Source: an uncultured Ulvibacter sp. (GTDB taxonomy: Bacteria > Bacteroidota > Bacteroidia > Flavobacteriales > Flavobacteriaceae). Taken from it: 64,000 bases of DNA. The stretch covers positions 1-64,000 of the forward strand of contig CALIAF010000016.1 of the NCBI GenBank assembly GCA_938041335.1. The letters run 5' to 3'. The translations under genes were made by a program, and so were the position numbers. The notes beneath the pieces were generated by a model. The model was not told the origin of the DNA. It saw only the letters and a list, made by a program, of their open reading frames with translations, and made no database searches. Of this stretch, positions 19,133 through 36,791 are shown in pieces (position 1 is the first letter of the stretch; every line of letters starts with the position of its first letter).

Positions 19133-19179
19133 GATTTCAGAAATTATTAAAGAAGCACTTACTCACTAAAATTAAAAAG

Positions 19180-19208
19180 AAATTCCATCTCAAAATGAAA
19201 TGGAATTT
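19180..19208. terminator. Hairpin between convergent rhomboid and TlpA-like genes
   Basis: AAATTCCAT pairs with ATGGAATTT around an 11-base loop. It is AT-rich and has no clear T-run, but the convergent position suggests transcription ends here. Confidence 0.4.
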
Positions 19209-19234
19209 GCACTAGTAGGATCATACTTGGTAAG

Positions 19235-20347
19235 CTAGTCTAACAAACTCCCTATTCTATTGCCTAGTGCTTGGCCTCTTAGATTTTTGTCTATTATCTT
19301 TCCATTTTCATCTAATAAAAATGTGGCTGGTATAGATCGTACGTTATACTGCTGCGCAATCGGGTCTTGCCAAAACTGAAGGTTTGATACGTGATACCAG
19401 TCCATGTTATCATCTTCAATTGCTTTTAACCATCGTTCTTTCTGGCCTTTACGATCTAGTGAAACACTAATGATATTTAACCCTTTATCATGGTATTTTT
19501 CGTAGACCGCCACTACATTTGGGTTTTCTAATCTACAAGGCTTGCACCAAGATGCCCAGAAATCAATTATAGTATATTTTCCTAATGCATCATCAAGTGA
19601 CAGCATTTCTCCTTCTGGTGTAGGAGCTGTAAATTTAGGAGCATCACCGCCCACAGCAGATTTAGCTAATGCCGTTACCGAAGCCTTAATTTTTGATACT
19701 TGTGGTGTTTTACTAATTTTAGGGGACAGGTTATTTACGGCGGCTAATGCCTTGTCTGCTGTGATTTCTCTTTTCCGGAGCATTTCAGAAATTAGCATAA
19801 CACTAAAAAGCGCGTTTGGATTTTCTTCAATGTAGTTTAATTTTACATTTTTTTCTTTACCCACGTCCATTCTGTTCAGTTGTTGCAACTGCAACATGGC
19901 GTCAGAGTCATTAGCGGCACGAGCGACTTTAATAGCTTCTGAACGTTCTTTTCGTGAATTTGCAATTGCATTAAGATCGTTTTGAAATGCACTGTAACTA
20001 TCATTTTGAGGGCTACCTTTTACCGTAGATGCCTCGATGCTGTCTTTGTAAATGCTTGCTTTTAGATTGCTATTCTCAGGGAAATAGTAGATCATTTTAT
20101 TCGTGTAATCTGGCTTTATATAGTTCATGCCAGCAGTTTCTGTTTTTGGGTAGGACGCAGAAAACTTCCCGTTTTGAATGATTAATGTATCAATAGGTGT
20201 AGGCTGATTATTGGCGTCTAATTGGTAAATATAGACTCTTGCACCATCTGGATATCCAATGGCAGTACCATCTAGATTATATGTATTAGAATTGTCTGCA
20301 CAACTGATTAATAATAAGAGGCTACAGAGAGATAATATATATTTCAT
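19235..20347 (-). CDS. TlpA-like lipoprotein: DUF4369 domain plus thioredoxin-fold oxidoreductase
   Basis: This 370-aa protein has a lipoprotein signal (MKYILSLCSLLLLISC; lipobox LLISC). The N-terminal half resembles DUF4369 (beta strands, GARVYIYQLD, PIDTLIIQNGKFSASYP). A helical spacer follows (~130-225). The C-terminal AhpC/TSA-thioredoxin domain begins at APKFTAPTPEGEML and has active-site WCKPC (~262-266), SVSLDRKG and cis-Pro SIPATFLLD. It is probably a periplasm-facing thiol-disulfide reductase anchored to a membrane. The partner is unknown; no ccd/dsbD gene is nearby. Confidence 0.9.
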   Translation of the reverse strand: MKYILSLCSLLLLISCADNSNTYNLDGTAIGYPDGARVYIYQLDANNQPTPIDTLIIQNGKFSASYPKTETAGMNYIKPDYTNKMIYYFPENSNLKASIYKDSIEASTVKGSPQNDSYSAFQNDLNAIANSRKERSEAIKVARAANDSDAMLQLQQLNRMDVGKEKNVKLNYIEENPNALFSVMLISEMLRKREITADKALAAVNNLSPKISKTPQVSKIKASVTALAKSAVGGDAPKFTAPTPEGEMLSLDDALGKYTIIDFWASWCKPCRLENPNVVAVYEKYHDKGLNIISVSLDRKGQKERWLKAIEDDNMDWYHVSNLQFWQDPIAQQYNVRSIPATFLLDENGKIIDKNLRGQALGNRIGSLLD

Positions 20348-20366
20348 AACGTAATATTGATTTTTA

Positions 20367-20396
20367 CAAAAATATAGAATTTAAAATAGTGATGAA
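20367..20396 (-). promoter_or_regulatory. Promoter of the TlpA-like gene
   Basis: On the minus strand, TTC (20394-20396), 19 bases, then a perfect TATTTTTG (20367-20374) lies 19 bases before the start codon. It has one mismatch at -33. Confidence 0.45.
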
Positions 20397-20484
20397 CGGG
20401 TTTGCTAAAATTTGTTAAATAGCCGCGTGTTCTCATTAAAGCGATGTAATATTGCTATATTGAGGTATTATAAGAATTATTAAG

Positions 20485-22851
20485 ATGATGACAAAAGGCG
20501 AATTTCCATTTAAGATTAAGGTTGGGTTTAAAAAATTATTAGAACAGTATGAAGCGCTAGCAAGTTCTGATAATGAGATTGTTGCTCATAAGGCAAAGAG
20601 TATATTAGCTTATGCTAAACAAGACCCTCGTATCGTTGATGGATTTGACTCTGTGGAGCAATTAAGCGAGCAAGAAGAGCTCATAGAAAAAATCACAGAA
20701 GACCTCTTTACCTCTGTATTAGAGCATAACGAAATTAAATTTGCGACATTACCTTTTCAAGAGTTTGTACTAAAATCTACACAACGTTATAAGAATATTA
20801 TAAAAGGCGCAAATGAGGATTTTGTGCCGCATATCAAGAATTTTGATGAAAACCATTTTTATATTATGGGATGTAGTATTATTCTCAATTTGTATTATGG
20901 GCTTCAGTTAGATTTTAGAAGGCCATTTTATTATGAGATTCCAGATGGTACGGGTCTCAATAAAACCTATCGTCTTATTTATAATGCCGATTTTGTAGAA
21001 ATTGAAAAAACAAAGAAGGCTTTAGAAATAACAGATGATGATGTTGCAGATTTACTAGACAATTTTGATAATATTGCCATGTGGAAGGAAAAATTTCCAC
21101 CTCAAAGTTGGGTGTTTAAAGGTTTTATTATGGCAACAATGATAGATGTGACTGCAGATGCTTCTATCTCAAATTTTAAAACATTTTTATTAAAACAGGA
21201 CAATCTTGAGCCTGCTCTTATAAGTGAAATAGAGGAAATCTATCAGAGGATTTTCGGCCTTCCAGAATTACAAGTTGGGTTTGTTGATTTTAATGAAGAA
21301 GACGAAACCTTTGAGCGCTTGCATTATAAAGAGATGAAAAGTTATATACTTGAAGATAAAGAGTCTCAGGGAAGCAAGGAAGCATTGTGTGATAGATCGT
21401 ACCACACATTATTTGAGAAAAACGAGTTTTATTGTATTTCAGATACAGAGCGGTATCATAAATTATATCCTAAAAACGTCTTATATAAAAAACTATTAGA
21501 TCAAGGAATTAAAAGCGCCATTCTAGCGGCAGTTGTTCAAGATGGAAATCTTATAGGCTTGTTAGAGTTGGCTAGTTTTTCTCCTAGAAAACTTAATAGT
21601 ATCAATGCAAATAAATTAAAAGACATCATGCCTTTTCTGGAAGATGCTGTTATTAGAGCAAAAAAAGCTAAAGAAAACGAGTTAGAGCTTATTATACAAG
21701 AAGAATGCACGTCCATACATACAAGTGTGCATTGGAAATTTAGAAAAGAAGCGAAGCGCTATTTAGCGGCGATGACGCAGAACAATCCGGTTATTTTTAG
21801 AGAGGTGGTTTTTGAGGATGTGTATCCTTTATATGGACAAATGGATATTAAAGGGTCTTCTACTGCCAGGAATAGTGCGACTGTTTTAGACCTGAAGCAT
21901 CAACTTACTCGCATTGAATCAATTATCACAAACATCTCGAAAATAGAGAAGCTTCCTATTTATGATCAAATAAAGTTTCGGATAAAAACGTATTTGGAAG
22001 AGATGCTTGATGACTTGCAAGTAGACAGCGAGCGACAGGTGTTAATTTTTGTTCAAACAGAAATTATACCGCTCTTTGTTCATTTAAGAAAAAAGAATAA
22101 GGATCTAAAAACACTCATAGACGCTTATTATGAAGAAGTAGATCAAAGTACAGGACTTATTTATAAGCATCGTAAAGATTATGATGAAACGGTGATGATG
22201 ATTAACAAGCGTATGGCCGCAATACTTGATAAGAAGCAAATTGAAGCCCAAAAAATGTATCCGCATTACTACGAACGTTATAAAACGGATGGAGTAGAGC
22301 ATAGCCTCTACATAGGCGAATCTATAACTAAGAAAAACAGTTTTCATAAAGTGTACTTGTACAACCTTCGTTTATGGCAATTGCAAGCCATGTGCGAAAT
22401 GGAGAACCAATATTATAAACTGAAAGAAAATATGGCGGTAGAGCTGGATGTGGCCTCTATGATTTTAGTTTTTAATACATCACTTTCATTACGATTTAGA
22501 ATGGATGAAAAACGCTTTGACGTGGATGGCACTTACAATGCACGTTATGAAGTTGTAAAGAAAAGAGTAGACAAGGCAAATATAAAAGGTACAAATGAGC
22601 GCGCTACGCAAGCTGGAAAAATAACAATAATTTACTCGCAAGAAGAGGACGAGTTAGAATACAGAAGATACATAGGTTTCTTACAAACTATGAAGCAACT
22701 AGACGATGATCTAGAGTTGTTGGATCTCCAAGATTTACAAGGGGTTACAGGTCTAAAGGCTTTAAGAATAAGTGTTTTGTATTCTAAAGGAAAAGAAAAT
22801 GCAAAAGAATACTACACCTATGAAGACCTAGTAGAAAGTATTAATGAGTAA
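20485..22851 (+). CDS. Large GAF-domain-like protein of unknown function
   Basis: This 788-aa soluble protein has no signal peptide. A helical N-terminal part (~1-250; includes FKIKVGFKKLLEQYEALA) precedes a region resembling a GAF sensor domain (~285-405; CDRSYHTLFEKNEFYCISD, then IKSAILAAVVQDGNLIGLLELAS). A long mainly helical C-terminal part follows, with YLAAMTQNNPVIFREVVFEDVYPLYGQ-like text split over ~430-470. I recognise this type from other Flavobacteriaceae but know no function. It has no HTH, kinase or cyclase motif that I can see. It ends 5 bases before the stop of the convergent HD-PycTM gene. Confidence 0.75.
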   Translation: MMTKGEFPFKIKVGFKKLLEQYEALASSDNEIVAHKAKSILAYAKQDPRIVDGFDSVEQLSEQEELIEKITEDLFTSVLEHNEIKFATLPFQEFVLKSTQRYKNIIKGANEDFVPHIKNFDENHFYIMGCSIILNLYYGLQLDFRRPFYYEIPDGTGLNKTYRLIYNADFVEIEKTKKALEITDDDVADLLDNFDNIAMWKEKFPPQSWVFKGFIMATMIDVTADASISNFKTFLLKQDNLEPALISEIEEIYQRIFGLPELQVGFVDFNEEDETFERLHYKEMKSYILEDKESQGSKEALCDRSYHTLFEKNEFYCISDTERYHKLYPKNVLYKKLLDQGIKSAILAAVVQDGNLIGLLELASFSPRKLNSINANKLKDIMPFLEDAVIRAKKAKENELELIIQEECTSIHTSVHWKFRKEAKRYLAAMTQNNPVIFREVVFEDVYPLYGQMDIKGSSTARNSATVLDLKHQLTRIESIITNISKIEKLPIYDQIKFRIKTYLEEMLDDLQVDSERQVLIFVQTEIIPLFVHLRKKNKDLKTLIDAYYEEVDQSTGLIYKHRKDYDETVMMINKRMAAILDKKQIEAQKMYPHYYERYKTDGVEHSLYIGESITKKNSFHKVYLYNLRLWQLQAMCEMENQYYKLKENMAVELDVASMILVFNTSLSLRFRMDEKRFDVDGTYNARYEVVKKRVDKANIKGTNERATQAGKITIIYSQEEDELEYRRYIGFLQTMKQLDDDLELLDLQDLQGVTGLKALRISVLYSKGKENAKEYYTYEDLVESINE

Positions 22852-22856
22852 AAAGA

Positions 22857-24083
22857 TTAACCAGCAGTTTCGGTTACTATATTACTTACTTCTTTTACAG
22901 TTTGTTCACTAATCCCAAAAGATATAGCAAAGGCAAGAATAGATATCACAATCCCAATCACAAAGATAGTATAGGTAATTCGTAAAATGCGATATTTTCT
23001 GTCCAGCACTTTTCCTAGAAAATATAAATCTTTTGTGAGTGAAGAATACACATAGTCTTTATCTTTAATAAGCTCATCTATTGCCCATTGAAATTGGGAG
23101 AGTTCCATTTTGTGAAAGTTTCCGAAGAACGTTAGATTCACTGTTTTGTTCTCAACGTCCTCTTTGGTAAATTCACCTCTAGTCACGTTTGGTCTAGTGG
23201 CAATTACAGCAAGGACCATCGTTACAGTAGATGATACCACAAAAATAGCTGTTGGCCATACTAAAAACGGGTTCGTATCAAGTTTAGAAAGAAGGTTTGC
23301 AAGTACTACGGAAATAATAATGGCATTTACAGATAGTAAAATATTGGCTTTGGTGTCTGCTATATCACTTAGCTTAATGTGATTACGTAATGCAACACGG
23401 TAAAAAGTCTGTATGCCTCGTTCTGGACTATTATTTTTAGCCTCGGCCTTATACTGTGCTTTCATTCGCTCTTTCTTGAACGATTTTTTTTCTTTTTTCT
23501 TAGCTTTTAATAAGTTGGATAGGTTTTTTTCTTTATTAGATTGCCAGTTTTTTAATGCATATTTAGAATAGTATTGATGTTTTTTAGACAGCACTTCTAT
23601 ATTCTCATCACGCCATTCTGAAGCGGTATATTCTTTTACACCTTGTAAATGATACTCTTGTCTTAAAAAATCACTCGCCTCATCAAAATAGTCTTTGGCA
23701 AAATGCGATGCGTCTGCATCACGAATCATTTCTTCTAATCTTCCTTCTGGATGGCCTTTAAATTTGGTTGCCATAATACAGGCTGCGACCCCTTGAATAA
23801 TATCATCAGCAATTTTTTGTTCTTTCAGAAAAGCAGTGGCAATGATCACCCCTTCTTCTTCATGACCTTCTTTAGTAACCGTATACCCCGTATCATGCAA
23901 TAATGCAGCCAGTTGCAGAATGGTTGCATCTTTAACATTAATTTCAGAATTTTCAATTATTTCATTTATACTTTTGTATACGCGTTTAGAATGCGTATAG
24001 TTGTGGTAAGTAAAGGTGTTAGGCAGTTTTTCTTTAAAGAGATTTAAGATAAAATCATCTGCCTTTTGTACTATATCAGTCAT
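22857..24083 (-). CDS. HD-domain phosphohydrolase fused to a PycTM (DUF5706, Pycsar-effector-like) membrane domain
   Basis: This 408-aa protein has an N-terminal HD domain with likely metal ligands H31, H63-D64 (LLHDTGY), H74 and D122/D124 (IRDADASH). A very basic stretch follows (~193-212). The C-terminal ~180 residues match the Pycsar-effector membrane family: RNHIKLSDIADTKANILL, two hydrophobic helices (~247-267 and 275-296), FFGNFHKMEL (~319-328), LYFLGKVLD and a last helix (~368-390). In Pycsar defence, such proteins respond to cyclic pyrimidines. No uridylate/cytidylate cyclase is nearby, and an HD fusion could instead hydrolyse a nucleotide. A stand-alone paralogue lies at 59358-59936. 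Confidence 0.88.
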   Translation of the reverse strand: MTDIVQKADDFILNLFKEKLPNTFTYHNYTHSKRVYKSINEIIENSEINVKDATILQLAALLHDTGYTVTKEGHEEEGVIIATAFLKEQKIADDIIQGVAACIMATKFKGHPEGRLEEMIRDADASHFAKDYFDEASDFLRQEYHLQGVKEYTASEWRDENIEVLSKKHQYYSKYALKNWQSNKEKNLSNLLKAKKKEKKSFKKERMKAQYKAEAKNNSPERGIQTFYRVALRNHIKLSDIADTKANILLSVNAIIISVVLANLLSKLDTNPFLVWPTAIFVVSSTVTMVLAVIATRPNVTRGEFTKEDVENKTVNLTFFGNFHKMELSQFQWAIDELIKDKDYVYSSLTKDLYFLGKVLDRKYRILRITYTIFVIGIVISILAFAISFGISEQTVKEVSNIVTETAG

Positions 24084-24208: not shown

Positions 24209-27200
24209 ATGAAAAACAAAAATATACTTTTTCTATTTCTACTTTTTATGCTATCTGCCTGTGCTTCGTATGCACCTCAATATAAGAATGCCGAAGCCAA
24301 TGTTTCTTTTCCAACCCACAAAGAAGTGGCTACGCAATTTTATTTAATAGGCGATGCAGGAAAGTCTCCTTTAGGCGGAATGAGTAAAGGGTTAATAGCT
24401 GCGAAAGCAGGAATAGCTGCGGATAATAATAAAAATGATTATGCCATTTATTTAGGAGATAACATTTACCCAGAAGGGATGCCAAGAAAGGGGGATGAAG
24501 AGCGCAAGTATGCTGAGAACCATCTTGATGGTCAATTAAAAACAGTTCAAGAATTTGCTGGTACAACTTATTTTATTCCAGGAAATCATGATTGGTATAA
24601 TAACGGTTTAGAGGGATTGTCAAGAGAACAAGAATATTTGATAGAAAAGTCAGGCAATCCAGAAATTTTTCAACCTATGAATGGGTGTCCCTTGAAAAGT
24701 ATTTCGGTGAATGATGATATTCAAATCATTATTATTGACAGCCAATGGTATCTAGAAGACTGGAACTCAGATCCAAATATTAATAAAAGTTGTGAGATTA
24801 AATCTCGTGAAAAGTTTTTTATTGAGATTGAATTAGAAATTAGAAAAAACAGGAACAAAACGATTCTGTTTGCCATGCACCACCCTATGTATACTCACGG
24901 AACTCACGGTGGTTATTATAGGCTCAGCAAACACTTATATCCATTTCAGAATAAAGTGCCCATGCCGCTCTTGGCATCACTTATCACTCAAGTGAGAACT
25001 CAAGGTGGTGTCTCAGTACAAGACAGATACAATGAGTTGTATAATAAGTTAATGATTAAACTTGGGGCAATTGCAAAAAAGCATCCTCGACTCATTTTTG
25101 CGTCAGGACACGAGCATTCCTTGCATCATATTGAGAAAGATGGGTTGATACAAATTCAATCTGGGAGTGCCTCAAAAGAGTCTGCTGGCGCCTTAGGCGA
25201 TGGAGGCGAATTTAGTTATGGAGGGCATGGTTTTGCTGTGATGACTGTTTTTAAAGACGGATCTTCTTGGGTACGTTATTTTGGAGTAGAAGATGGGAGT
25301 ACACCCAAACTACTTTTCGAAAAAGAAGTCTTTCCACCTCGAAAAAAAATAGAAACACCCAATCTACCTTATACATTTGAAAACGAAAAGACTACTCCTA
25401 TTTATACCAATGATAGTATTACAGAACTGTCTTTTTTTAATACCGTTTGGGGATCTAAATATAAAGAAGTGTACACTACACCTGTAAGGGCAAAAGTGGC
25501 TTCACTAGATTCTTTGTTTGGTGGAGTGACGGTAATCAATGAAAATAGTACTTTAGACTATAAAGCACTGCAATTAAAAGACGCCAATGGTAATCTGTAC
25601 CGAATGCGATCTTTAGTAAAAAATTCATTTAAGTTTAAAGAAAGGTTAAACAATAAAACAGCCATTACAGTAGATGAAGATGGCGAAACTAATAGTATTG
25701 AAAACTTAGATCCTACAGAACGCGACATTTCTTTTTATACCGCTTCGCATCCATATGGGGCCATGGCGCTACCAGTGCTCGCAAGTAAAATAGCTATTTT
25801 TCAAACAAAGCCCGTTTTGTATTATGTGCCTAAACAACATAAATTAGGGAGATATAATGACCTTTTTGGCGACCAGCTTTATTTGATCTCCCTGGAGCCA
25901 AACGAGAAAAGCGTTGGGGTTAGTGCCTTTAAATATCCCAATGATATAGAAACGACAGATGATATTTTAATTAAATTAAGAAAAAGTGGAAAGATTGGTG
26001 TTGATGAGCCTAACTATATTAAATCGCGACTTTTTGATATGCTTGTCGGAGATTGGGATCGTGAGCAGGACAGATGGCGCTGGGCAGAATATTACAATGC
26101 AGATAGTTTAAATGTATTTGTTCCCATCCCTAAAAATAGAGATGATGCCTTTGCAAGTTTTGAAGGCAATATTTTGGATGTGGCAAGCTCTATCTTCGGA
26201 AATACAACACAACGTCACACATATAGCGACAACCTAATAGATTTAAAATGGTTTAATAAGGAAGGAATCATTTTTGACCGGGCTTTACTGCATCGTGCTG
26301 GTAGAAACCAATGGAACTTTATAGCAAAACAAATTCAAACCGCATTGACAGATGAAGTTATTGATGAGGCTTTTAATGAAATACCACCCGAAGTTCGAGA
26401 CGAGACCCTTTCAGAAATAAAAATGCATCTAAAAGCAAGAAGAGATAACCTTCTAAAAATTGCTGATCGTTATTATAACCTATTGGCAACCTTACAGAGT
26501 ATTGAAGCCACAGATAAAGATGATAGTATTGAAGTGACAAGACTACCTGATGGTATAACGAGCGTGAAAATCTTTAGGAGTTATGAGGATCAATCCTCAA
26601 AAATGCTTGTAGAACGATTATTTAATAGTGACGATACAAAAGAACTCTGGATTTATGGGCTTGATGGCAACGACACTTTTATTCTAAAGAACGCCAATGA
26701 AAATGATACTAAAGGGAGGCTTGTTTTTATAAGATTAATAGGCGGTCATGGCAATGATGTGTTTGATATAAAAGAGGGTAAAAGAACAAAAGTATACGAC
26801 CATGATTCCTTGGAGAATACGGTTTTGCAAAAAGATGATGCCAATTTTAGGATGACAGACATCTATGCTTTTAATACCTATGACTACCGTAAACAAATAG
26901 ACAAAACGAATGATCTTTCTGGCGCGATGAGCTACAACCCTGACGATGGGATTAAAACAGGGTTACAATATTATTTTCAGAAAGACGGTTTTCAACGTAA
27001 TCCTTTTAGTTTTAGGCATACATTTAATGGTGCTTATTATGGAGACACACATAGTTTTGATTTTAAATATTCTGGAGAGTATGCAAACATTAGAGATGCC
27101 AAAAACATTAATTACAGCTTATACGTAACTAGCCCGAACTATATAGAAAATTATTTTGGCTACGGAAATGAAACAAACAACACACAAGACCAGGAAGGTT

Positions 27201-27940
27201 ATGATGCTAATCGCGTTAAAATACAAAAGATTAATGCCAGTGTGGGATTGTTAAAAAATAGCCCGTTTGGCAGTTTTTTTAAAACACAGTTGTCTTTTAA
27301 AACGTATAAAGTAACTGGTGATTTTTCTTTTAGCTTACCCACAACTAGTGAGTTTGAAATTGATGACACTAGTTTTTTTGGCTCTTACGAGGGTATTTAT
27401 AGTTACCGGAGTTTTGATGATGCAACCAACCCTACCTTAGGGATGCTATTTGATTTTAATCCGGGTATCACAACTAATATCAAGGATATTGGCAGAACTT
27501 TTGGGTATTTAAACACAAGACTTGGCTTTTATAATTCTCTAACTACAAATAGTAAACTGGTTTTAAAAACAAATGTGAGTGGGCAGTTTAACTTCGGAAA
27601 TAGGTTTGAGTTTTACCAAGGAGTGAAACTTGGTGGAGCAACGGGCTTAAGAGCATTTAGAGAAGAACGATTTACAGGTAAATCTGCCTTAGTTGGTAAT
27701 GCAGATTTGAGATATAGCTTTGATGCTTTTAATGTAGGTCTCATTCCCTTACAAATAGGAATTTTTGGTGGTGCAGATTTAGGTCGTGTCTGGATACCAA
27801 GTAGGCTTTCAGAAAAATGGCATAATGGTTATGGTGGCGGTTTATGGATTAATGGCCCTGGCGGTTTACACGGGAATTTTAATGCCTTTACCACAACAGA
27901 AAGTACTCGAGTTACTTTTGGCCTTGGGTTTAAGTTTTAA
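24209..27940 (+). CDS. Giant lipoprotein: calcineurin-like phosphoesterase, CotH-kinase-like region and Omp85-type barrel (complete metal site)
   Basis: The protein is 1243 aa from the ATG at 24209; the frame extends 13 codons upstream without a signal. A lipobox (MLSAC) follows the signal peptide. The N-terminal metallophosphoesterase has all metal-binding blocks: GDAG (~47), GDNIYPEG (~80), GNHDW (~126), MHHPMYTHG (~223) and GHEH (~301). The middle contains YRMRSLVKN (~460) and LVGDWDREQDRWRW followed by PKNRDDAF (~612-645), resembling the catalytic segment of CotH-type kinases. The C-terminal ~340 residues form an Omp85-like barrel with GLRAFREERF (~1146) and terminal Phe. It converges on a paralogue at 28014-31649. 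Overall role unknown. Confidence 0.85.
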   Translation: MKNKNILFLFLLFMLSACASYAPQYKNAEANVSFPTHKEVATQFYLIGDAGKSPLGGMSKGLIAAKAGIAADNNKNDYAIYLGDNIYPEGMPRKGDEERKYAENHLDGQLKTVQEFAGTTYFIPGNHDWYNNGLEGLSREQEYLIEKSGNPEIFQPMNGCPLKSISVNDDIQIIIIDSQWYLEDWNSDPNINKSCEIKSREKFFIEIELEIRKNRNKTILFAMHHPMYTHGTHGGYYRLSKHLYPFQNKVPMPLLASLITQVRTQGGVSVQDRYNELYNKLMIKLGAIAKKHPRLIFASGHEHSLHHIEKDGLIQIQSGSASKESAGALGDGGEFSYGGHGFAVMTVFKDGSSWVRYFGVEDGSTPKLLFEKEVFPPRKKIETPNLPYTFENEKTTPIYTNDSITELSFFNTVWGSKYKEVYTTPVRAKVASLDSLFGGVTVINENSTLDYKALQLKDANGNLYRMRSLVKNSFKFKERLNNKTAITVDEDGETNSIENLDPTERDISFYTASHPYGAMALPVLASKIAIFQTKPVLYYVPKQHKLGRYNDLFGDQLYLISLEPNEKSVGVSAFKYPNDIETTDDILIKLRKSGKIGVDEPNYIKSRLFDMLVGDWDREQDRWRWAEYYNADSLNVFVPIPKNRDDAFASFEGNILDVASSIFGNTTQRHTYSDNLIDLKWFNKEGIIFDRALLHRAGRNQWNFIAKQIQTALTDEVIDEAFNEIPPEVRDETLSEIKMHLKARRDNLLKIADRYYNLLATLQSIEATDKDDSIEVTRLPDGITSVKIFRSYEDQSSKMLVERLFNSDDTKELWIYGLDGNDTFILKNANENDTKGRLVFIRLIGGHGNDVFDIKEGKRTKVYDHDSLENTVLQKDDANFRMTDIYAFNTYDYRKQIDKTNDLSGAMSYNPDDGIKTGLQYYFQKDGFQRNPFSFRHTFNGAYYGDTHSFDFKYSGEYANIRDAKNINYSLYVTSPNYIENYFGYGNETNNTQDQEGYDANRVKIQKINASVGLLKNSPFGSFFKTQLSFKTYKVTGDFSFSLPTTSEFEIDDTSFFGSYEGIYSYRSFDDATNPTLGMLFDFNPGITTNIKDIGRTFGYLNTRLGFYNSLTTNSKLVLKTNVSGQFNFGNRFEFYQGVKLGGATGLRAFREERFTGKSALVGNADLRYSFDAFNVGLIPLQIGIFGGADLGRVWIPSRLSEKWHNGYGGGLWINGPGGLHGNFNAFTTTESTRVTFGLGFKF

Positions 27941-28013
27941 AATATTGTTATTTAAATAAGCTCCAATGTAGGTCGTTTGGAAAAGGGAATTTTTTGCTTA
28001 GATCGATTCCAAT

Positions 28014-31000
28014 TTAAAAACCAAAACCAAACCCTACTTGAACCTGGGCTCCTTCTGTACTAGTAAAATACCCTACATTTAACCCAAAGCTATTAAGACC
28101 GCTTACCCAAAGGCCGCCACCTTGAGAAGTGTGCCAAATGTCGCTATCCTCACTATCTAGCCAAACGCGCCCGTAATCAAAACCACCAAATATTCCATAA
28201 TTAATAGGGATTACAGAGGTAACTATTTTACCTATCCTTAGGTTTAGATCACTGGTTTGATAGAGATAGGACGCTCCCGTAAATCGCTCATCACGAAAAC
28301 CTCTTAAGCCATTAGTTCCGCCTATGCTTGGTGCATGGTAAAAGAAATATTCGTTACCAAAATTGGTTTTAGCCTCTACTAATGTGCTAAGAACAAGATT
28401 ACCAGACGGAATTAGTTTTTGCTTCACACCCACTTGAGCACTCGCATACCCAAAGTTATAGTTTTCTAGTGCTATGTTGCTTTTGTACCCCAAAGTAGCT
28501 CCTAGATATAGTGCGCGAGTAGGGAAGTCTGCCGCATCTTGATTTTTATATTCTCCGGCTACCTCACCACCTATATAATTTTGACGTTCTAGAAGTCCTG
28601 TTTGGCCAAAATTAGTTTCACTAAATAACCTATCTGCGTCATCTTCTATTTCCCAAGATTCAAAAATACCTTTCACTTTAAAATGTTTAGATGCGATACC
28701 AATATCTCCAATTATTTGTTCTGTTCTAGCTCTGTTAAACTCTATGTCTACTGCGTCATCATCGTAAGTTGTTTCGTTACCAGCGCCAAAAAAGTTTTTA
28801 GCATATCCATTATTTGTTGTGTATACTCCAACTTCTAGATTCCAATTAGGAAATACATTTGCAAAAACTCCGTCATAGTCAAGCTCAATAGCATTTGTTT
28901 GCGTAAAGTAATTGAAACTTAAAGTATGTTGGTATCTAAAGGGGTTTCCGTTAAATCCATAGTTGGTATAGGTGTCGGTTGCACCAAAAAATAATCCATC
29001 ATCTCTTCTAAAACCTATAGATGGAAGTATTATGTTATTGTTTTCTTTAAAGTATCTCCAGTGCCAGGTGTTTGTTTCATACCTATTTGTTAACTGTGTT
29101 GCTGGTTTTTTACCTTCAATAGTTATTTTTTCGTGTCTCCAATCATATACTTTTACTTTTTTGCAATTTTCTATTTCAAATTCATCTTTGCCATAACCAC
29201 CTATGAGTCTTACTTTAATTTCTTTAGTACCTTCATTACCCTTTACAATAAAGGTGTCATTGTCGTCCAAGCCATAGAGCCATATCTCTTTTGTGTCTTT
29301 CTTATTAAAAGTTCTATTGTAGAATATTTTATTTGTTTCGTTTTTCAACTTGCGCTCAATGGTTACTTGGGTTATGCCGTCTGCCATTCTAGTGATAGTA
29401 AACAAATCATCCTTATTGGTCCCGTGAACGGAAACAATTTCATCCATCCGTTTTCCGTATGTCTGGGCAATAGATACGAGGTTTTTGAGTCTTCCTTTTA
29501 AATGATTTTTGATAGCATTAGCACTTTCATCTTGTACTTCAATAGGGATATTTTTAAATGCCTCTTCAATCAAGGCATCCGTCATATTATTTTGAATTGC
29601 TTCTGCCTCTTCCATCCAGACAGAATGGTCATATTTGTTAAGAATGGCTCGGTCTAGATTATTTCCTTCGCCATTAAACCACTTTATATTTGGTATCTCA
29701 GCATCATAAGATTGCCAGAAACGCACATCTGGCAATACCAATTGTATTAAAGGTATCGCAATACCATCAAATTTTGAAAAAGCCGCATCTCTATCTCGAG
29801 GAATGGGAATAAACCTAATGTCATCATCATTCACTTTATATTGTGCCCAGCGCCATTGGTCGTTATGCCTATCCCAGTCACCTATGAGCATATCAAAAAT
29901 ACGTGCGCGGATAAACGCTCTTTGGTCTAAACTATATTTTTCATCTTCTTTTAATTTTTCAAAAACATCTGTTGTGCTTTCAAACTGCTCGATCTTGCCT
30001 TTAACATCTGGGTTTGCTCTATTATATCCTTCAAAATCTTTTTGTTCGTTATTAGCTCTTTCTTCTATAAAGTATAATTGATCACCATATTCATTGCCCA
30101 AAAGTTCAAAACCTGGCTGTTTTGGTAAATAGTACAATTGTGTGTTTGCATGATTAACCTTTGCCGAAGCTGCCAGCGGATTAATCACTAACTGCATATA
30201 TGGATGGGTCGTACTAAAGAAATCATAAATAGCTGTTTCTGCAAAACTACCTTTGTAGTTTTCTTCATTAAAAGCAAGTCCTTTTATTTTATAACGTAAA
30301 AATTTTAACGCATTCTTTTCTAGTCCACGCATGGCATACTCTCTGCCATCTGCATCTGCAAGTCTTGCAGAAAAGGACTGGTGACCTCCACCTTTTTGGG
30401 TAATAACGAGTGGTGATTCCATCTGTTCTAAGACACCCACCGGCGCTGTAACAGATCTGCCAAAGTACTCCCGGTATCTCTTTCCCCAAATAAAATTATA
30501 GATACCAGATTTATTTAGTTTTTCTTCATCATTGGTAATTGGGATTGTTTTTGTTCCTTCTGAAATATTAGGAGCATCAAACTTAGCTATATTTGGTGTT
30601 TTCAATGCTGCAGTAACGCTCATGGTCTTATGGTTATCCTCGGTAATAAATGAAACAGAGGAGCTACCATCGCTGTAATATTTCAGGACTGCAAAACCTT
30701 GTTGTCCTTGTGCAAATTGACCTTCATATTCTAAGATACCACCAGCGGCAGTAATATTATCTTTAGATCTGTGAACACCGGATGTATTTCCCATCGCACC
30801 ACTAATTATTTGATGTACGCCGCCTCCTGTAAGGTATTGTAAGCTAGGGTCATGCCCAGATACGATAGTTACCCTGTCTAATTCTTGTGCAAATGCTGCA
30901 ACTAAAATCCGGAGCTCATTGTAGCGATCAAAGTTTCCGAAGGCAGGGGAGAAGCCGCCTAGACCCCGATTATATTTCCCATTATTAAACACAGGATGAT

Positions 31001-31649
31001 GCATTACAATCACTAAGTTTTTATTGCGAGCAGATTTAATGTAGCCTTCTAGTACTTCAGTAAATCTTCTGCGTGTTACAATATCAATACATTTTCTATT
31101 GATGTCTTCTACGCGGTCCCAGTCTGAGATATACCAATTAGAATCTACAAAAAGAACGGCGAGGTCATCATTAATATCATTATAGTCTAGCGGGCATACA
31201 TTATTTGGACGTACAGAGGTTCGTTTTAAATCTTTATCTTTAATATAATTTTCTATCCATTCAATGTCTTTGGTCTTTTTACTGGACCATTCGTTTTCTC
31301 CTAGATTGAAAATTGTTTTCCCTTTAAAATCTTTTAAGATATTCAACTGAGACTCTAGTTGGTTTGCTCTTGAAGCTTTGCTATCTGTATCTTTATTTAG
31401 TATATCTCCTGTAAAAAGGAGCGTGCTCTTTTTTGGGGCCGAAGCTAATTCTGTTTGCAGTTTCTGTAGCACATTTTGAGAGACATTACCATTGCCCTGG
31501 CCGCCAGCGATAAAAAAGGTGTGGATTGCTTCTGGCGTTTGATTAATCAATTGTAATTCTGAGGATTGCTGCGTTTTTTTAGTTGCACAACTGGTAATAA
31601 GTATTGCTAATGCAAAGATGAAATATCGGTGAATGGTATATATTTTCAT
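28014..31649 (-). CDS. Paralogous giant lipoprotein: degenerate phosphoesterase, CotH-kinase-like region and Omp85-type barrel
   Basis: The protein is 1211 aa from the ATG at 31649, with lipobox ITSC. It has the same architecture as the convergent gene at 24209-27940, but the phosphoesterase metal blocks are altered. GDAG is GGQG, GDNIYPEG is GDILNKD, GNHDW is GENEW and GHEH is GHDP; MHHPVF is kept. It is therefore probably catalytically dead in that domain. The CotH-like signature is more canonical: LIGDWDRHNDQWRW, then RFIPIPRDRDAAF (~585-617). The C-terminal barrel has GLRGFRDERF (Omp85 L6-type motif) and ends GFGFGF. It sits next to the polysaccharide locus, divergent from its promoter. 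Confidence 0.85.
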   Translation of the reverse strand: MKIYTIHRYFIFALAILITSCATKKTQQSSELQLINQTPEAIHTFFIAGGQGNGNVSQNVLQKLQTELASAPKKSTLLFTGDILNKDTDSKASRANQLESQLNILKDFKGKTIFNLGENEWSSKKTKDIEWIENYIKDKDLKRTSVRPNNVCPLDYNDINDDLAVLFVDSNWYISDWDRVEDINRKCIDIVTRRRFTEVLEGYIKSARNKNLVIVMHHPVFNNGKYNRGLGGFSPAFGNFDRYNELRILVAAFAQELDRVTIVSGHDPSLQYLTGGGVHQIISGAMGNTSGVHRSKDNITAAGGILEYEGQFAQGQQGFAVLKYYSDGSSSVSFITEDNHKTMSVTAALKTPNIAKFDAPNISEGTKTIPITNDEEKLNKSGIYNFIWGKRYREYFGRSVTAPVGVLEQMESPLVITQKGGGHQSFSARLADADGREYAMRGLEKNALKFLRYKIKGLAFNEENYKGSFAETAIYDFFSTTHPYMQLVINPLAASAKVNHANTQLYYLPKQPGFELLGNEYGDQLYFIEERANNEQKDFEGYNRANPDVKGKIEQFESTTDVFEKLKEDEKYSLDQRAFIRARIFDMLIGDWDRHNDQWRWAQYKVNDDDIRFIPIPRDRDAAFSKFDGIAIPLIQLVLPDVRFWQSYDAEIPNIKWFNGEGNNLDRAILNKYDHSVWMEEAEAIQNNMTDALIEEAFKNIPIEVQDESANAIKNHLKGRLKNLVSIAQTYGKRMDEIVSVHGTNKDDLFTITRMADGITQVTIERKLKNETNKIFYNRTFNKKDTKEIWLYGLDDNDTFIVKGNEGTKEIKVRLIGGYGKDEFEIENCKKVKVYDWRHEKITIEGKKPATQLTNRYETNTWHWRYFKENNNIILPSIGFRRDDGLFFGATDTYTNYGFNGNPFRYQHTLSFNYFTQTNAIELDYDGVFANVFPNWNLEVGVYTTNNGYAKNFFGAGNETTYDDDAVDIEFNRARTEQIIGDIGIASKHFKVKGIFESWEIEDDADRLFSETNFGQTGLLERQNYIGGEVAGEYKNQDAADFPTRALYLGATLGYKSNIALENYNFGYASAQVGVKQKLIPSGNLVLSTLVEAKTNFGNEYFFYHAPSIGGTNGLRGFRDERFTGASYLYQTSDLNLRIGKIVTSVIPINYGIFGGFDYGRVWLDSEDSDIWHTSQGGGLWVSGLNSFGLNVGYFTSTEGAQVQVGFGFGF

Positions 31650-32035: not shown

Positions 32036-34456
32036 ATGGTTACAAAGTATACTAGTATTAAAACGTTTTTCAGTTTTATCATTTTGTTTTTTATTACTGT
32101 AGCTTCGATTGATGCTCAATCACTTCCGAGTAATATAGATGGTATTAGTAATGATGAGTTACAAAGTTATTGGACACAAGCAAAGGCTCAGGGTTACACA
32201 ATGGACCAGATTAAAGCGGTTGCTTCTAGTAAAGGTGTTTCTTCAGACCAGATAGCGGCTTTTGAAGAGCGTATATCTTCCATGGGTGCCTCTGCTGTTG
32301 GCGTACAAGGAGATCAAATAGATACAAACCTAGGAGTGTCAGACTCCAATTCATTTGGATTTACTGGTTCTGAGATATCCGCTCCATCTAATGACGACCC
32401 ACTGTTTGGGTACGCCTTTTTTAATAACCAAAACATCACGTTTACACCTAACTTGAACTTAGCAACTCCAAGAAATTATGAATTAGGACCTGGAGATGAA
32501 CTAGTTGTTAATGTTTGGGGTGCGGCAGAAAACACATATTCTTTATTTATTGATAGGGAGGGAGCATTACGCATTCCGAATGTAGGACCTGCATTTGTCA
32601 GTGGTATGTCTTTAGATGAGGCAACTACGGTAATTATTAATAAACTTAAACGGGTATATGGTGGCATTGATGCGCCTGCAAACAGCCCGTATAAGGTAAA
32701 TATTAGTTTGAGTCTTGTTAATGCAAGATCTGTCCAGGTAAATATTATTGGGGAAGTTAAAGTGCCGGGTACCTATACCTTAAGTTCACTTTCTACGGTA
32801 TTAAATGCTCTTTATGCTGCTGGAGGCCCTACAAAAGAAGGGACGTTTAGAGAAATAAAATTGGTTAGAAATGGCGAAGAAGTTTCTACTTTTGACGTGT
32901 ATCAGTATTTAATTAATGGTTCTCAAAAAGGAAATAAAACGGTAAAAGATCAGGATGTTATTATTGTATCTCCTTATGAATCCCGGATATCTATTTCGGG
33001 TGCTGTGAAGCGACCTGGAATCTATGAGTTGTTGGATAACGAAGACTTTGGTGATCTTCTTAAATATGTAAGTGGCTTTAAGTCTACGGCATTTAAAGAT
33101 CGCTTTATATTAAACAGAATTAAAGGAGATCGACGTATTTTAAAAGAAATTACATACAATAATATGTTAAGCGAAAAACTCCAATCTGGAGATCGTTTAA
33201 CAGTAAATGGCATTATTGATGAATATGAAAATAAAATTACTATAAGTGGTGCTGTATATAGGCCAGGTGATTATCCTTACACAGAAGGGCTAACTATTAA
33301 AGATTTGGTTTTAAAAGCTTCAGGCCTTACAAGGACGGCTTTTCAAGATCGTGGGATCATCTATAGACGAAATTCTAAAATTGATAAATTTACAATGCAG
33401 TTTTCTCTAAGAGGCGCAATGAATGGAACAGAAAATTTCATTTTACAACCTAATGACGAAGTGCGAGTATTTGATGCAGACACTTTTCAGAGTGACTACA
33501 CGGTTAGTATTACTGGTTCTGTAAGAAATCCAAATTCTTTCGAGTACTTTGATGGAATCACAATACAAGATTTAATACTTCGAGCGGGAGGTTTTACAGA
33601 TTCTGCTAACAATCAAAAGATTGATATTTACAGATTCATTGGGGATGATGATTTTGAAACTTTATCAGAATCGATTACCGTTTCTGCAAGTGGACAATTT
33701 GATACCGAAACAAACGAACCCTATCTTTTAAAAGCAAAAGACCGAATTTCTGTAAGAAGTCTTAAGGGCTACAATGACCAAAAACAAGTGAGAATTGAGG
33801 GAGAGGTTAATTATCCTGGTGCTTATTTAGCGGAATTTAATGGGGAAAGAATATCTAGCTTTATTAAAAGAGCTGGTGGTTTATCTCCTTATGCTTTTGA
33901 ACAAGGCGCAACATTAGTGCGTATTAATCCATTTTATAAAGATGATGCACAAGAGTTGACCACAGAGGTAGTAAATGAGAACACGGCCTCAAATTTAGCC
34001 CTCAATAATAAAAAAGAATTTAGAGTAGGTATCAACCTTTCTGAAATTTTAGGTAAAAATGGAGATGCTTCAAAATCTAATTTAGTTTTAAAAACTGGAG
34101 ATAGAATTATTGTTCCTTCCATAAAAGAAACGATTAAGACAGAAGGCGAGTTGTTTATTCCTTCATTAATAAGATATGAAGACGATTGGACCTTAAAAGA
34201 TTATATAGATAGGTCTGGTGGTTTTGGAGAAAAAGCCAAGAAGTCTAAGACCTATGTGGTCTATGCAAATGGAGATATACGCTCTACAAAACGCTTTTTG
34301 TTTTTCAAAAGCTATCCCGAAATTGAGCCTGGGGCAATTATTCTTGTTCCAAAGAAAATGCCAAAGGAGAGTTTATTCAGTTTAAAAGAAGCAATAAGTG
34401 CAGGTACCGGAGTTACTGCCCTAGCATTATTAATTGATAGATTGCTAGATAAATAG
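32036..34456 (+). CDS. Polysaccharide export outer-membrane protein with multiple SLBB domains (Wza-like)
   Basis: This 806-aa protein has a signal peptide ending SIDAQ. A helical region (~35-90) precedes the polysaccharide-export domain (YELGPGDELVVNVWGAAE, ~146-163). At least five SLBB-like modules follow, each near a phrase like GAVKRPGIYEL, GAVYRPGDYPYTEG, GSVRNPNSFEYFDG, GEVNYPGAYLAEFNG or GELFIPSLIRYED. A possible C-terminal membrane helix (~782-800) follows. Wza-family proteins form the exit channel for capsule or EPS. It is more than twice as long as E. coli Wza because of the repeated SLBB modules, as is common in Bacteroidota. It is first gene of the locus. Confidence 0.92.
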   Translation: MVTKYTSIKTFFSFIILFFITVASIDAQSLPSNIDGISNDELQSYWTQAKAQGYTMDQIKAVASSKGVSSDQIAAFEERISSMGASAVGVQGDQIDTNLGVSDSNSFGFTGSEISAPSNDDPLFGYAFFNNQNITFTPNLNLATPRNYELGPGDELVVNVWGAAENTYSLFIDREGALRIPNVGPAFVSGMSLDEATTVIINKLKRVYGGIDAPANSPYKVNISLSLVNARSVQVNIIGEVKVPGTYTLSSLSTVLNALYAAGGPTKEGTFREIKLVRNGEEVSTFDVYQYLINGSQKGNKTVKDQDVIIVSPYESRISISGAVKRPGIYELLDNEDFGDLLKYVSGFKSTAFKDRFILNRIKGDRRILKEITYNNMLSEKLQSGDRLTVNGIIDEYENKITISGAVYRPGDYPYTEGLTIKDLVLKASGLTRTAFQDRGIIYRRNSKIDKFTMQFSLRGAMNGTENFILQPNDEVRVFDADTFQSDYTVSITGSVRNPNSFEYFDGITIQDLILRAGGFTDSANNQKIDIYRFIGDDDFETLSESITVSASGQFDTETNEPYLLKAKDRISVRSLKGYNDQKQVRIEGEVNYPGAYLAEFNGERISSFIKRAGGLSPYAFEQGATLVRINPFYKDDAQELTTEVVNENTASNLALNNKKEFRVGINLSEILGKNGDASKSNLVLKTGDRIIVPSIKETIKTEGELFIPSLIRYEDDWTLKDYIDRSGGFGEKAKKSKTYVVYANGDIRSTKRFLFFKSYPEIEPGAIILVPKKMPKESLFSLKEAISAGTGVTALALLIDRLLDK

Positions 34457-34462
34457 ACTAGT

Positions 34463-35539
34463 ATGAAAGACGATATTAAATTAGTTTTGAGTTATGTTAA
34501 AGCATTTTTTTTAAAGAAAAGATTCATTTACCTAACTGTTGGTTTCTTTATTTTAATAGGAATTTTCACAGCTATTTTTACACCTAAAAGCTATCAATCA
34601 AGCACCAGTTTTTTAACTCAAATGTCTAGTGATTCTGGAATGGGTAGTGGATTAAAAAGCATTGCAAGTTTAATAGGATTAAGTGTAGGTAAGAAAGCTG
34701 AATCTAAAGATTTACCTGTTTTCTTATACCCAAAAATAATGAATAGTCTCGAGTATCAACGTGAGATTATGCAAACTAAGATTAACGTTGCGGGATTAGA
34801 TTCTAGTGTAACTTTAAAAGACTATTATACATCAATACAATCACCAGATGTGGTGACTACAGTGAAAAAATACACTTTAGGCTTACCAAGTCTAATACTT
34901 GCAAAATTTAGACCTAAGAGAGAAACATCAGGTGTACGAATAGATTCTCTTGAATATGTTTCTGCTGAAGAAATAATGCTCATAAATAAATTAAGAACCG
35001 ATGTTATATTTGGTGTTGATGAGTTTGACGGGACCATAACGATTAGTGCTACAATGCCTGAGAATATTGCGGCAACACAAGTAACTGAAAACGCCAAAAA
35101 CATATTGCAAAAGAAAATTATTGAGTATAGAATAGCAAAAGCTCAAGAGCGTTTTAAGTTTATTGATTCCCAATATAATGTAAAAAGAGATGAGTTTTTT
35201 GCTGCTCAGGGGGCATTAGCTAGATATTCTGATAGGAATATGTTTAATAACACTCGAACTTCTTTAGTAAGAAAACAACAATTAGAGAATGAATATAGCC
35301 TTGCTTATCAAGTGTATTCTGAGCTAGAAAGTCAACGTATTCGTGAGAGTATTAACCTAAATGAAGATACTCCTGTATTCACTACAATACAACCGGCAAT
35401 TGTGCCATTAGAGCCATTAAATGGAAATCCAGTGGTTATTGTTTTAAAATTTATGGCTATAGGATTTATTGCTTCAATATTTTTATATGTAATCATATTA
35501 ATGTGGAGGTTTTTAAAAAACATGTACAAGTCAATTTAA
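34463..35539 (+). CDS. Polysaccharide chain-length/co-polymerase protein (Wzz-like, no kinase domain)
   Basis: This 358-aa protein has an N-terminal membrane helix (~19-40, followed by FTPKSYQSSTSFL) and a C-terminal one (~328-350). The periplasmic part between them is coiled-coil-rich (FKFIDSQYNVKRDEFFAAQGALARY). A Pro-rich motif just before the second helix (IQPAIVPLEPLNGNP) is typical of Wzz/PCP proteins. PCPs set chain length and couple polymerisation to export. No Wzc tyrosine-kinase domain is fused, and none is encoded in the window. It starts 6 bases after the Wza-like gene. Confidence 0.9.
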   Translation: MKDDIKLVLSYVKAFFLKKRFIYLTVGFFILIGIFTAIFTPKSYQSSTSFLTQMSSDSGMGSGLKSIASLIGLSVGKKAESKDLPVFLYPKIMNSLEYQREIMQTKINVAGLDSSVTLKDYYTSIQSPDVVTTVKKYTLGLPSLILAKFRPKRETSGVRIDSLEYVSAEEIMLINKLRTDVIFGVDEFDGTITISATMPENIAATQVTENAKNILQKKIIEYRIAKAQERFKFIDSQYNVKRDEFFAAQGALARYSDRNMFNNTRTSLVRKQQLENEYSLAYQVYSELESQRIRESINLNEDTPVFTTIQPAIVPLEPLNGNPVVIVLKFMAIGFIASIFLYVIILMWRFLKNMYKSI

Positions 35540-35552
35540 CATAATCATCGCT

Positions 35553-36338
35553 GTGGAAATATTAAAAATTGCAATTACTGCTGCTATTAAAGCAGGAGAG
35601 AAAATAATGGAAATCTATACTACTGCAGACTTTAATATTGAGATTAAAGCTGATGATTCTCCTTTAACAATAGCAGATAGAGAAGCAAATGATGTTATCA
35701 TGAGCTTTTTAAAAAATACATATCATCCTATAATTAGTGAAGAGAATAAACAAACTGATTATGGTACACGTAAAAAATGGGATTCTTGTTGGATCGTAGA
35801 TCCATTAGATGGTACTAAAGAGTTTATCAAAAGAAATGGGGAGTTTACCGTAAATATCGCACTTGTTGAGAATAATATTCCGACTCTAGGTATCATTTAT
35901 GTGCCAGTTACAAAAGTGCTCTATTTTACTAAGGATGGAAAATCATTTAAAATTACTTTATCTGATCTTTCTGTGTCTGTTGATGAAATTATCGCAAAAT
36001 CTACTCAGATACATGTGGCTTCGTCAATAACAGAACCGGTTAAAATAGTTGGTAGTAGATCTCATTTAAATGAAGATACTCAAAACTTTATTGATGCTAT
36101 TAAAAATGATAAAAATGTAGAGATTGTCTCTAAGGGGAGTTCTTTAAAGTTTTGTTTAGTGGCTGAAGGTACCGCTCATTACTATCCTAGATTTGCTCCT
36201 ACTATGGAATGGGACACAGCAGCGGGACAAGCAATATGTCAGTGTGCCGGCGCTAAGGTGATTAATCAGGATACTCAGCAACCATTACTTTACAATCGCG
36301 AAAATTTATTGAATCCTTATTTTTTGGTTACTATATAA
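35553..36338 (+). CDS. cysQ: 3'(2'),5'-bisphosphate nucleotidase
   Basis: This 261-aa protein starts with GTG and belongs to the inositol-monophosphatase-like, Mg-dependent, Li-sensitive superfamily. It carries SEENKQ (metal Glu region), the signature WIVDPLDGTKEF (~80-91) and a C-terminal EWDTAAGQAI (~219-228). CysQ removes the 3' phosphate from PAP, the by-product of sulfotransferases. In this locus, with PAPS-synthesis genes and two sulfotransferases, it would recycle PAP and prevent product inhibition. One base separates it from the DUF2061 gene. Confidence 0.94.
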   Translation: MEILKIAITAAIKAGEKIMEIYTTADFNIEIKADDSPLTIADREANDVIMSFLKNTYHPIISEENKQTDYGTRKKWDSCWIVDPLDGTKEFIKRNGEFTVNIALVENNIPTLGIIYVPVTKVLYFTKDGKSFKITLSDLSVSVDEIIAKSTQIHVASSITEPVKIVGSRSHLNEDTQNFIDAIKNDKNVEIVSKGSSLKFCLVAEGTAHYYPRFAPTMEWDTAAGQAICQCAGAKVINQDTQQPLLYNRENLLNPYFLVTI

Positions 36339-36339
36339 G

Positions 36340-36783: not shown

Positions 36784-36791
36784 ATTTTGCT

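Follow-up and report, generated by a model that had tools for sequence, protein, structure and literature searches.

How might a phosphatase-like and a kinase-like activity be divided between two paralogous proteins that each carry both domains on the same barrel? The question is raised by a 64,000-nucleotide stretch of DNA (positions 1–64,000 of contig CALIAF010000016.1, assembly GCA_938041335.1; referred to here as the window) from an uncultured Ulvibacter sp. of the Flavobacteriaceae, in which two intact open reading frames (ORFs) converge: P0001 (24209–27940, forward strand; 1,243 residues) and P0002 (31649–28014, reverse strand; 1,211 residues). As an earlier interpretation of the bare DNA, referred to here as the sequence-only reading, had recognized, the two are paired lipoproteins of about 1,200 residues with a common three-part plan; they share 32% identity over 1,264 columns (E = 0), and each consists of a phosphatase-like domain, a kinase-like domain and, after a β-structured linker, a barrel. 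We interpret them as outer-membrane-anchored phospho-enzymes whose phosphatase and kinase roles may have been shared out between paralogues after duplication, and give this reading a probability of roughly 0.55.

The phosphoesterase domain of P0001 (residues 40–370; 24326–25318, forward strand) matches PF00149 with 34.5 bits (cut-off 21.5), carries the motifs GDAG, GDN, GNHDW and GHEH, and has all seven metal ligands in place (D49, D84, Y87, N126, H225, H301 and H303). Its counterpart in P0002 (residues 39–354; 30588–31535, reverse strand) scores 19.4 bits, just below the cut-off, reads GGQG, GDIL, GENEW and GHDP at the corresponding motifs, and keeps three of the seven ligands although the phosphatase fold is retained. 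In the predicted model of P0002 (predicted local distance difference test (pLDDT) 78.7; predicted template modelling score (pTM) 0.69), from which both the phosphatase and the barrel folds were read, this part aligns with human purple acid phosphatase (TRAP/ACP5; Z-score of 26.8 with PDB 2bq8) and with GAP50 (Z-score of 26.3). Fold model and ligand scoring together mark it as a pseudo-phosphatase domain, in keeping with the phosphoesterase fold and the dead site proposed for it earlier.

Following the phosphatase part is the kinase-like domain, which spans residues ~425–765 of P0001 (25481–26503, forward strand; the C-terminal limit fits that of 423-residue relatives made of this domain alone) and residues ~399–741 of P0002 (29427–30455, reverse strand). 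Its catalytic-loop motif, with the consensus GDWDRHxDQWRW, is GDWDREQDRWRW in P0001 (26048–26083, forward strand) and GDWDRHNDQWRW in P0002 (29847–29882, reverse strand), and is followed by a second block (consensus PRDRDxxF) that reads PKNRDDAF in P0001 (26129–26152, forward strand) and PRDRDAAF in P0002; all motifs quoted in the sequence-only reading are present in the two proteins. The kinase site of P0002 is the consensus site, and that of P0001 departs from it at positions 619, 622 and 643 (P0001 numbering), N643 being aligned to the Asp of the W-D motif of CotH kinases. The earlier account of one active phosphatase and one pseudo-phosphatase therefore covers only half of the pair: P0002 is indeed degenerate, but the phosphatase-intact partner has an altered kinase site.

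The same division recurs across the protein family. Site states were assigned from seven metal-ligand and ten kinase positions in 241 proteins no shorter than 750 residues, a set mixing fetched loci with sampled genomes (G numbers) and obtained by merging proteins that agree in their last 250 residues (293 reduced to 258) before the length cut. Both sites are intact in 133 of these; 57 combine a degenerate phosphatase with a consensus kinase site, and 34 an intact phosphatase with a changed kinase site, the latter made up of a 29-member clade to which P0001 belongs and, outside it, five proteins of which four carry just one change. Both sites are changed in only two proteins (L226 and L242), that is, in 2 of the 226 that bear a phosphatase domain. 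No phosphatase domain was scored in the remaining 15 (kinase site consensus in 10, changed in 5), a group that includes cut or broken genes (L070 and L166). Of the seven ligands, six remain in 2 of the 59 phosphatase-degenerate rows, five in another 5, and four or fewer in 52.

The kinase-site changes of the P0001 clade, compared here with the other phosphatase-bearing rows, fall at three positions and are uniform. Position 619 is E in 27 of the 29 clade members and never H (H in 194/197 others), all 29 have H, R, Y or K at position 622 (Q in 197/197 others), and position 643 is N in 24 and D in two (D in 196/197 others), while D617 and R618 are retained in 29/29. Because its changes are so uniform, the P0001-type site looks remodelled, perhaps for regulation, and not left to drift.

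Copy number and site state go together. In a sample of 100 genomes of the taxonomic family, 83 match P0002 among the matches listed, the last of which have E values of ~1e-34 (so that full-length copies should all be included), and members were scored in 82, the weak match of G190 (3.8e-17) falling outside. Kinase-only genes of ~423 residues were excluded from the copy counts, and five 'short' rows all proved to be locus-end pieces of P0001-type genes already counted. Among the matches listed, genomes with a single copy have both sites intact in 54 of 57 cases, the exceptions being G197 (6/7 ligands), G199 (no phosphatase domain, degenerate kinase site) and G237 (phosphatase part incomplete, with a phosphatase fragment on another contig); genomes with several copies hold exactly one copy with 7/7 ligands in 25 of 25 cases. 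In 12 genomes a copy that bears the phosphatase domain is changed at the kinase site; 11 of the 12, including all ten with a P0001-type copy, also hold a copy with the consensus kinase site.

Whole-domain divergence agrees with the site states, the domain with the retained site being the better kept one. For protein pairs with barrel identities of 0.35–0.75, which are not independent of one another, proteins with both sites intact have practically equal identities in the phosphatase and kinase domains (0.524 and 0.527; 1,705 pairs). Within the P0001 clade the phosphatase is the more conserved (0.634 against 0.548, and higher in 97.9% of 384 pairs), whereas in the three phosphatase-degenerate groups the kinase domain is (phosphatase/kinase 0.534/0.599 in 27 pairs, 0.463/0.530 in 45 and 0.465/0.635 in 611). 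Orthologues in the sister species follow suit, with identities of 0.801 (phosphatase) and 0.754 (kinase) for P0001, and 0.766 and 0.880 for P0002.

Assignment of the middle part as kinase-like comes mainly from its predicted structure, which was turned to because sequence searches were unhelpful. Searched by sequence against the PDB, the middle domain of P0001 gave only Nop58 (E = 0.76), a profile search gave only an enterochelin esterase (E = 0.87), and 64 members compared with Pfam gave no consistent or relevant family. A match to the CotH family PF08757, a search for which the sequence-only reading had proposed, did not appear for P0001 or P0002 at a maximum E of 10, in a search whose HMMER filters drop most matches above 0.1, and neither protein is among the four PF08757 places of the source genome. 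An AlphaFold model computed from a 64-row alignment of P0001 residues 381–903 (pLDDT 81; pTM 0.83) adopts what is predicted to be an atypical kinase fold: Foldseek against the PDB places CtkA first (E = 1.8e-5), followed by HipA and HipT entries, and VIA-align gives PI4KII beta (Z-score of 14.7; 247 residues aligned, 4.1 Å), CotH (5jda; Z-score of 14.2; 254 aligned, 4.0 Å) and CtkA (Z-score of 13.0), PI4KII and CotH being tied, as rows less than one Z unit apart are treated. FAM20 was not among the best 50 VIA-align rows, an absence that carries no weight.

By profile, the domain is also a remote homologue of CotH. Comparison of the kinase part with a CotH alignment gave a score of 45.7 (E = 2.2e-5, probability 76%) over 152 columns, all in the C-terminal half of the kinase part, against a best score of 19.75 among 60 column-shuffled decoys and 22.9, 17.0 and 10.1 for the phosphatase, linker and barrel controls. 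Read by eye, this alignment brings GDWDRH onto the CotH catalytic loop and pairs D643 with the W-D Asp; from the profile alignment, D643 is inferred to be the DFG-equivalent Asp. As described in the passages of PMC12189002 on this point, CotH has no DFG motif, although it retains the equivalents of PKA D166, N171 and D184. Across 113 aligned members, P0001 and P0002 among them, G614, R618 and W623 are each kept in all 113, D617 in 112, and R644 and D645 in 110 each. The kinase-like middle part is supported by the predicted fold, and the poor conservation of GDWDR and RDxxF that would have spoken against it was not seen, both being near-invariant. Weak matches to the PADLOC candidate PDC-M03A were also recorded for 41 of the 64 kinase domains of the alignment (best E 1.3e-6).

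The kinase-like domain is a separable unit in proteins that appear to be envelope-directed, since it occurs in four layouts among the proteins examined for architecture: phosphatase, kinase and barrel (~1,240 residues); kinase, linker and barrel (~870 residues); kinase and linker with a signal peptide or lipobox recognized by eye (~500–570 residues); and a lone kinase domain behind what seems to be an N-terminal membrane anchor (423 residues). Instances of the last are the ORFs L126, L127 and L128, which carry a C-terminal CFxC motif, and a cluster of three kinase-plus-linker genes lies at L125 (6126–11151) in the distant genome G072. In a sample of 148 genomes of the phylum the domain is present in 53, and several families of the phylum have phosphatase and kinase domains on a single chain. 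The source genome itself holds two further relatives, a 1,205-residue protein (contig 31) and one of 875 residues that has no phosphatase domain (contig 24).

Connecting the enzyme domains to the barrel is a linker (P0001 residues 766–900; 26504–26908, forward strand) that is all-β in the models of both proteins, with no POTRA-like helix pattern seen in that of P0001; Omp85 members lacking POTRA domains are described in the part of PMC4104836 consulted. The barrel of P0002 (residues 869–1211; 28017–29045, reverse strand) is modelled with 16 long strands and resembles TamA (4n74; Z-score of 26.0) and BamA (8bo2; Z-score of 26.1), and that of P0001 (residues 905–1243; 26921–27937, forward strand) is placed by alignment to it. 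The two barrels score 45.6 and 54 bits with the NCBIfam Omp85 model, whose cut-off of 200 is not reached; the predicted structure nevertheless bears out the Omp85 assignment made earlier. Omp85 proteins characteristically carry an RG(F/Y)-like motif in loop 6, which joins strand 11 to strand 12. In the P0002 model the stretch connecting these two strands holds GLRGFRDERFTG, which contains a GLRGF loop, its P0001 equivalent being GLRAFREERFTG, and R1148 of this motif is kept in 113/113 members.

Divergent from P0001 is a gene (22857–24083, reverse strand) for a protein combining an HD phosphohydrolase-like domain with a PycTM domain (PF01966, 32.5 bits; PF18967, 127 bits), here called HD-PycTM. 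Of 79 fetched loci, 66 contain a relative of it; among 68 such ORFs, that of the window included, 60 are divergent from the family gene, the median gap being 57 bases, and of the 13 loci that have none, four have short upstream flanks and nine a full flank. The HD residues H31, H63–D64, D122 and D124 are conserved, with no more than one deviation, across 62 aligned proteins. Of the 100 sampled genomes, 81 have full-length HD-PycTM (E below 1e-90), and all 81 also have the barrel family; 17 have neither a family match nor full-length HD-PycTM (weak HD-only matches occur in two of the 17), and G199 and G190 have a degenerate or weak family match and no full-length HD-PycTM. Genome reduction may contribute to the joint absence, because many genomes that lack both are small. 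All but two of the 83 HD-PycTM genes (exceptions in G166 and G234) lie less than 12 kb from a family gene, 73 of these divergently, the family genes counted here taking in one kinase-only gene and a fragment at a contig end. In the phylum sample a fused or PycTM-only relative is present in 46 of 53 family-positive genomes; of the 55 genes concerned, 37 are no more than 15 kb away from a family kinase domain. In the source genome the third paralogue lies ~50 bases from the end of a PycTM-only match. Separately, a PycTM-only protein with 48% identity to HD-PycTM residues 215–392 is encoded in the window at 59358–59936 (reverse strand), 28 kb from P0002, and in G212 an HD-PycTM match lies ~190 bases from a 423-residue kinase-only gene.

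What is conserved across the family is the sharing-out of sites and the HD-PycTM neighbour, not the convergent pair. Adjacency, which the sequence-only reading had proposed to follow across genomes, does not extend family-wide: among the matches listed, the P0002-clade orthologue adjoins another family gene in two of seven sampled genomes (G000 and G213), and the adjacent pair was rejected as a conserved unit in favour of a local arrangement. At locus L022 a P0002-clade gene is likewise convergent with a P0001-type gene, and at L026 a further family gene sits between the two.

We propose that a lipidated N terminus and an apparently POTRA-less, 16-stranded Omp85-type barrel would anchor both enzyme domains in the envelope, a kinase-like domain of the PI4KII/CotH/HipA type standing beside a purple-acid-phosphatase-like domain, probably in the periplasm. 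In most genomes a single protein with both sites could then add phosphate to, and remove it from, one envelope target. After duplication, P0002 would provide a canonical kinase site together with a pseudo-phosphatase, and P0001 a phosphatase together with a remodelled kinase site that is probably inactive or regulatory. HD-PycTM, presumably an inner-membrane protein, probably belongs to the same pathway and may couple it to a cytoplasmic nucleotide signal, as gene linkage and the names of its domains suggest. Whether the whole amounts to a new envelope signalling system of the Bacteroidota, in which a kinase/phosphatase switch on one or more outer-membrane Omp85 barrels communicates through HD-PycTM with a cytoplasmic nucleotide, we put forward tentatively, as possible rather than probable. 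To our knowledge, reversible phosphorylation outside the cytoplasm has rarely been described in Gram-negative bacteria. The sharing of sites among paralogues would amount to a natural experiment suggesting that both sites are functional, and the linkage supplies a concrete partner in HD-PycTM, hinting at a non-defence role for a phage-defence domain.

Several observations weigh against this reading. The presumed β3 Lys position is Arg (R467) in 226/226 phosphatase-bearing rows, and Arg in place of this Lys is unusual for an ATP-dependent kinase. HipA, although among the top Foldseek matches, has a profile score of 23.7, no better than the 22.9 of the family's own phosphatase domain used as control. 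The P0001-type changes, with E619 in 27/29, resemble remodelling more than decay, and kinase-site changes among phosphatase-intact copies arose few times (the P0001 clade and L284). G216 is changed in both of its kinase sites: the phosphatase-intact copy has D617N and H619R, and the other D615N and R644W, yet keeps D617, D643 and D645; the genome looks like a second, partial instance of sharing-out. L091, the paralogue of the source genome that has no phosphatase domain, has D617N yet keeps its barrel. As for the neighbour, five genomes of the phylum sample have an HD-PycTM relative and no family member, and 7 of the 53 family-positive genomes have no PycTM relative, two of these seven carrying an HD-only gene less than 2 kb from the family kinase domain.

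The Arg and the uniform P0001-type changes bear on a pseudokinase, a middle domain of kinase fold that transfers no phosphate and serves instead to bind a nucleotide or phospho-ligand and to control the phosphatase or the barrel, which we consider rather unlikely. The invariant Arg and the orderly P0001-clade changes are what it would lead one to expect, and, in the portion of the literature on Fam20A and Fam20C consulted, a pseudokinase working with a kinase provides a precedent. It accords less well with the retention of D617 in 237/241 proteins and of D643 in 196/197 phosphatase-bearing rows outside the P0001 clade, with the better preservation of the kinase domain where the phosphatase degrades, and with the alignment of the catalytic-loop and W-D blocks to CotH.

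A shared phosphatase and kinase function, as we prefer, must also be set against relaxed selection alone, under which an extra copy would lose either domain once it is redundant and the jobs of the two would be unrelated. A tree of 117 rows, built with the scored columns removed and with many duplicates and tandem copies represented as one row or omitted, has at least eight changes of phosphatase state (two of them single rows with 6/7 ligands) and three of the kinase core; the independence of the kinase change is weak because such changes arose few times, and a paired sign test on independent pairs was uninformative (p = 1). This scarcity, the phosphatase being the part usually lost in duplicates, and the doubly reduced L091 agree with relaxed selection, whereas the exactly one intact phosphatase in 25/25 multi-copy genomes, the change of both sites in just 2/226 proteins and the presence of both domains on one chain in several families of the phylum do not. 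The data fit the loss of redundant parts and speak, indirectly, against unrelated jobs; we judge this explanation unlikely. L091 (5799–8426, reverse strand, contig 24; 875 residues) is kinase-dead-looking, as is L302 in the sister species, which also has D617N and no phosphatase domain.

Could the barrel instead be a secretion device, exporting its own enzyme domains in the manner proposed for PlpD so that they act outside the cell or on other cells? In its favour, the barrel lies C-terminal to the enzyme domains, and the source genome has four PF08757 places elsewhere. Acidic residues after the lipobox Cys act as a surface-export signal in Bacteroidota. Against export, the lipobox Cys (C18; 24260–24262 of P0001, forward strand) is a column kept in 112 of 113 aligned members, and of the 116 recognized lipobox patterns in 225 full-length proteins, 83 have no D or E at positions +2 to +6 and 33 do. 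Columns C160 and C195 are each kept in 110/113 members, and a disulfide between them is our guess; three kinase-only relatives begin, as read from their sequences, with an apparent membrane anchor. Given the scarcity of acidic residues, the conserved cysteines and these anchored relatives, the enzyme domains would probably be extracytoplasmic and face the periplasm, a location that fits at least as well as the surface export favoured by the sequence-only reading. Export of this kind, for which the account of patatin-like PlpD in PMC4104836 offers a precedent, seems doubtful.

It is very improbable that the barrel protein is a surface phage sensor of an anti-phage system built on a PycTM effector, despite the 127-bit PycTM domain, the PADLOC PycTM/2TM effector matches and the weak PDC-M03A matches of the kinase part, given that no pyrimidine cyclase was found among the 9 nearby proteins scanned (18485–24083 and 32036–37394 of the window), that the two PF00211 places of the source genome are on other contigs, and that HD-PycTM and the family occur together in 81/100 genomes where defence genes are usually patchy in distribution.

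Convergent with HD-PycTM is a gene (20485–22851, forward strand) for a 788-residue protein with no Pfam or NCBIfam match at E 0.01; relatives occur in 54 of 79 fetched loci, and all 56 ORFs, the window's included, lie on the strand of the nearest family gene. Directly beyond P0002 (32036–38295) are genes for polysaccharide export (SLBB/Poly_export), an inositol-monophosphatase-family protein, a DUF2061 protein and an APS kinase.

Part of the architecture is known already: the Omp85 'Metallo' subfamily (Heinz and Lithgow 2014, PMC4104836) likewise joins an N-terminal PF00149 domain, there called a metalloprotease domain, to an Omp85-type barrel. The main text of that paper nowhere uses the word 'kinase', and its passages on the subfamily mention neither site degeneration nor an HD-PycTM neighbour; the likeness is one of described architecture. 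The portions of the literature searched yielded no account of a kinase-like domain on an Omp85 barrel, of site sharing or of a link to HD-PycTM: titles pairing Omp85 with purple acid phosphatase concerned plastids, plants and organelle targeting, and none was found for the combinations Omp85/CotH, PycTM/HD-domain or metallophosphoesterase/TamA/Flavobacterium. A Riemerella metallophosphoesterase (Niu et al. 2021), a type IX secretion system effector according to the part of a review consulted, was considered as a possible characterized homologue and set aside.

CotH (PF08757) shares the fold, and its profile aligns with that of the family across the catalytic loop and the W-D motif; the present family differs in having no PF08757 match, in its GDWDRHxDQWRW motif and in carrying an Omp85 barrel in the same chain. 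PI4KII, HipA and CtkA are among the best fold matches (Z-scores of 11–15), and the DRxxDxW loop of PI4KII resembles the family motif, but we know of no barrel or lipobox in any of them. HipA was rejected as the nearest sequence relative, its profile score lying barely above those of its decoys (up to 20.1) and of the phosphatase control. In Pycsar (PycC and PycTM), the PycTM domain is a receptor that disrupts the membrane upon binding a cyclic pyrimidine, according to the passages seen in PMC11224242; here PycTM is fused to HD and encoded beside a barrel gene, and membership of Pycsar was rejected, a PycTM gene being present but no cyclase among the neighbours scanned. Fam20A and Fam20C, as far as the accounts consulted go, are likewise paralogous extracytoplasmic kinase-fold proteins, one of them site-altered, but differ in being eukaryotic and in having neither phosphatase nor barrel. 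Purple acid phosphatase (TRAP/ACP5) and GAP50 share the fold of the N-terminal domain, from which the family differs by its fusion to a kinase-like domain and an outer-membrane barrel. GAP50, a degenerate member of the phosphatase fold that serves as an anchor, provides a parallel.

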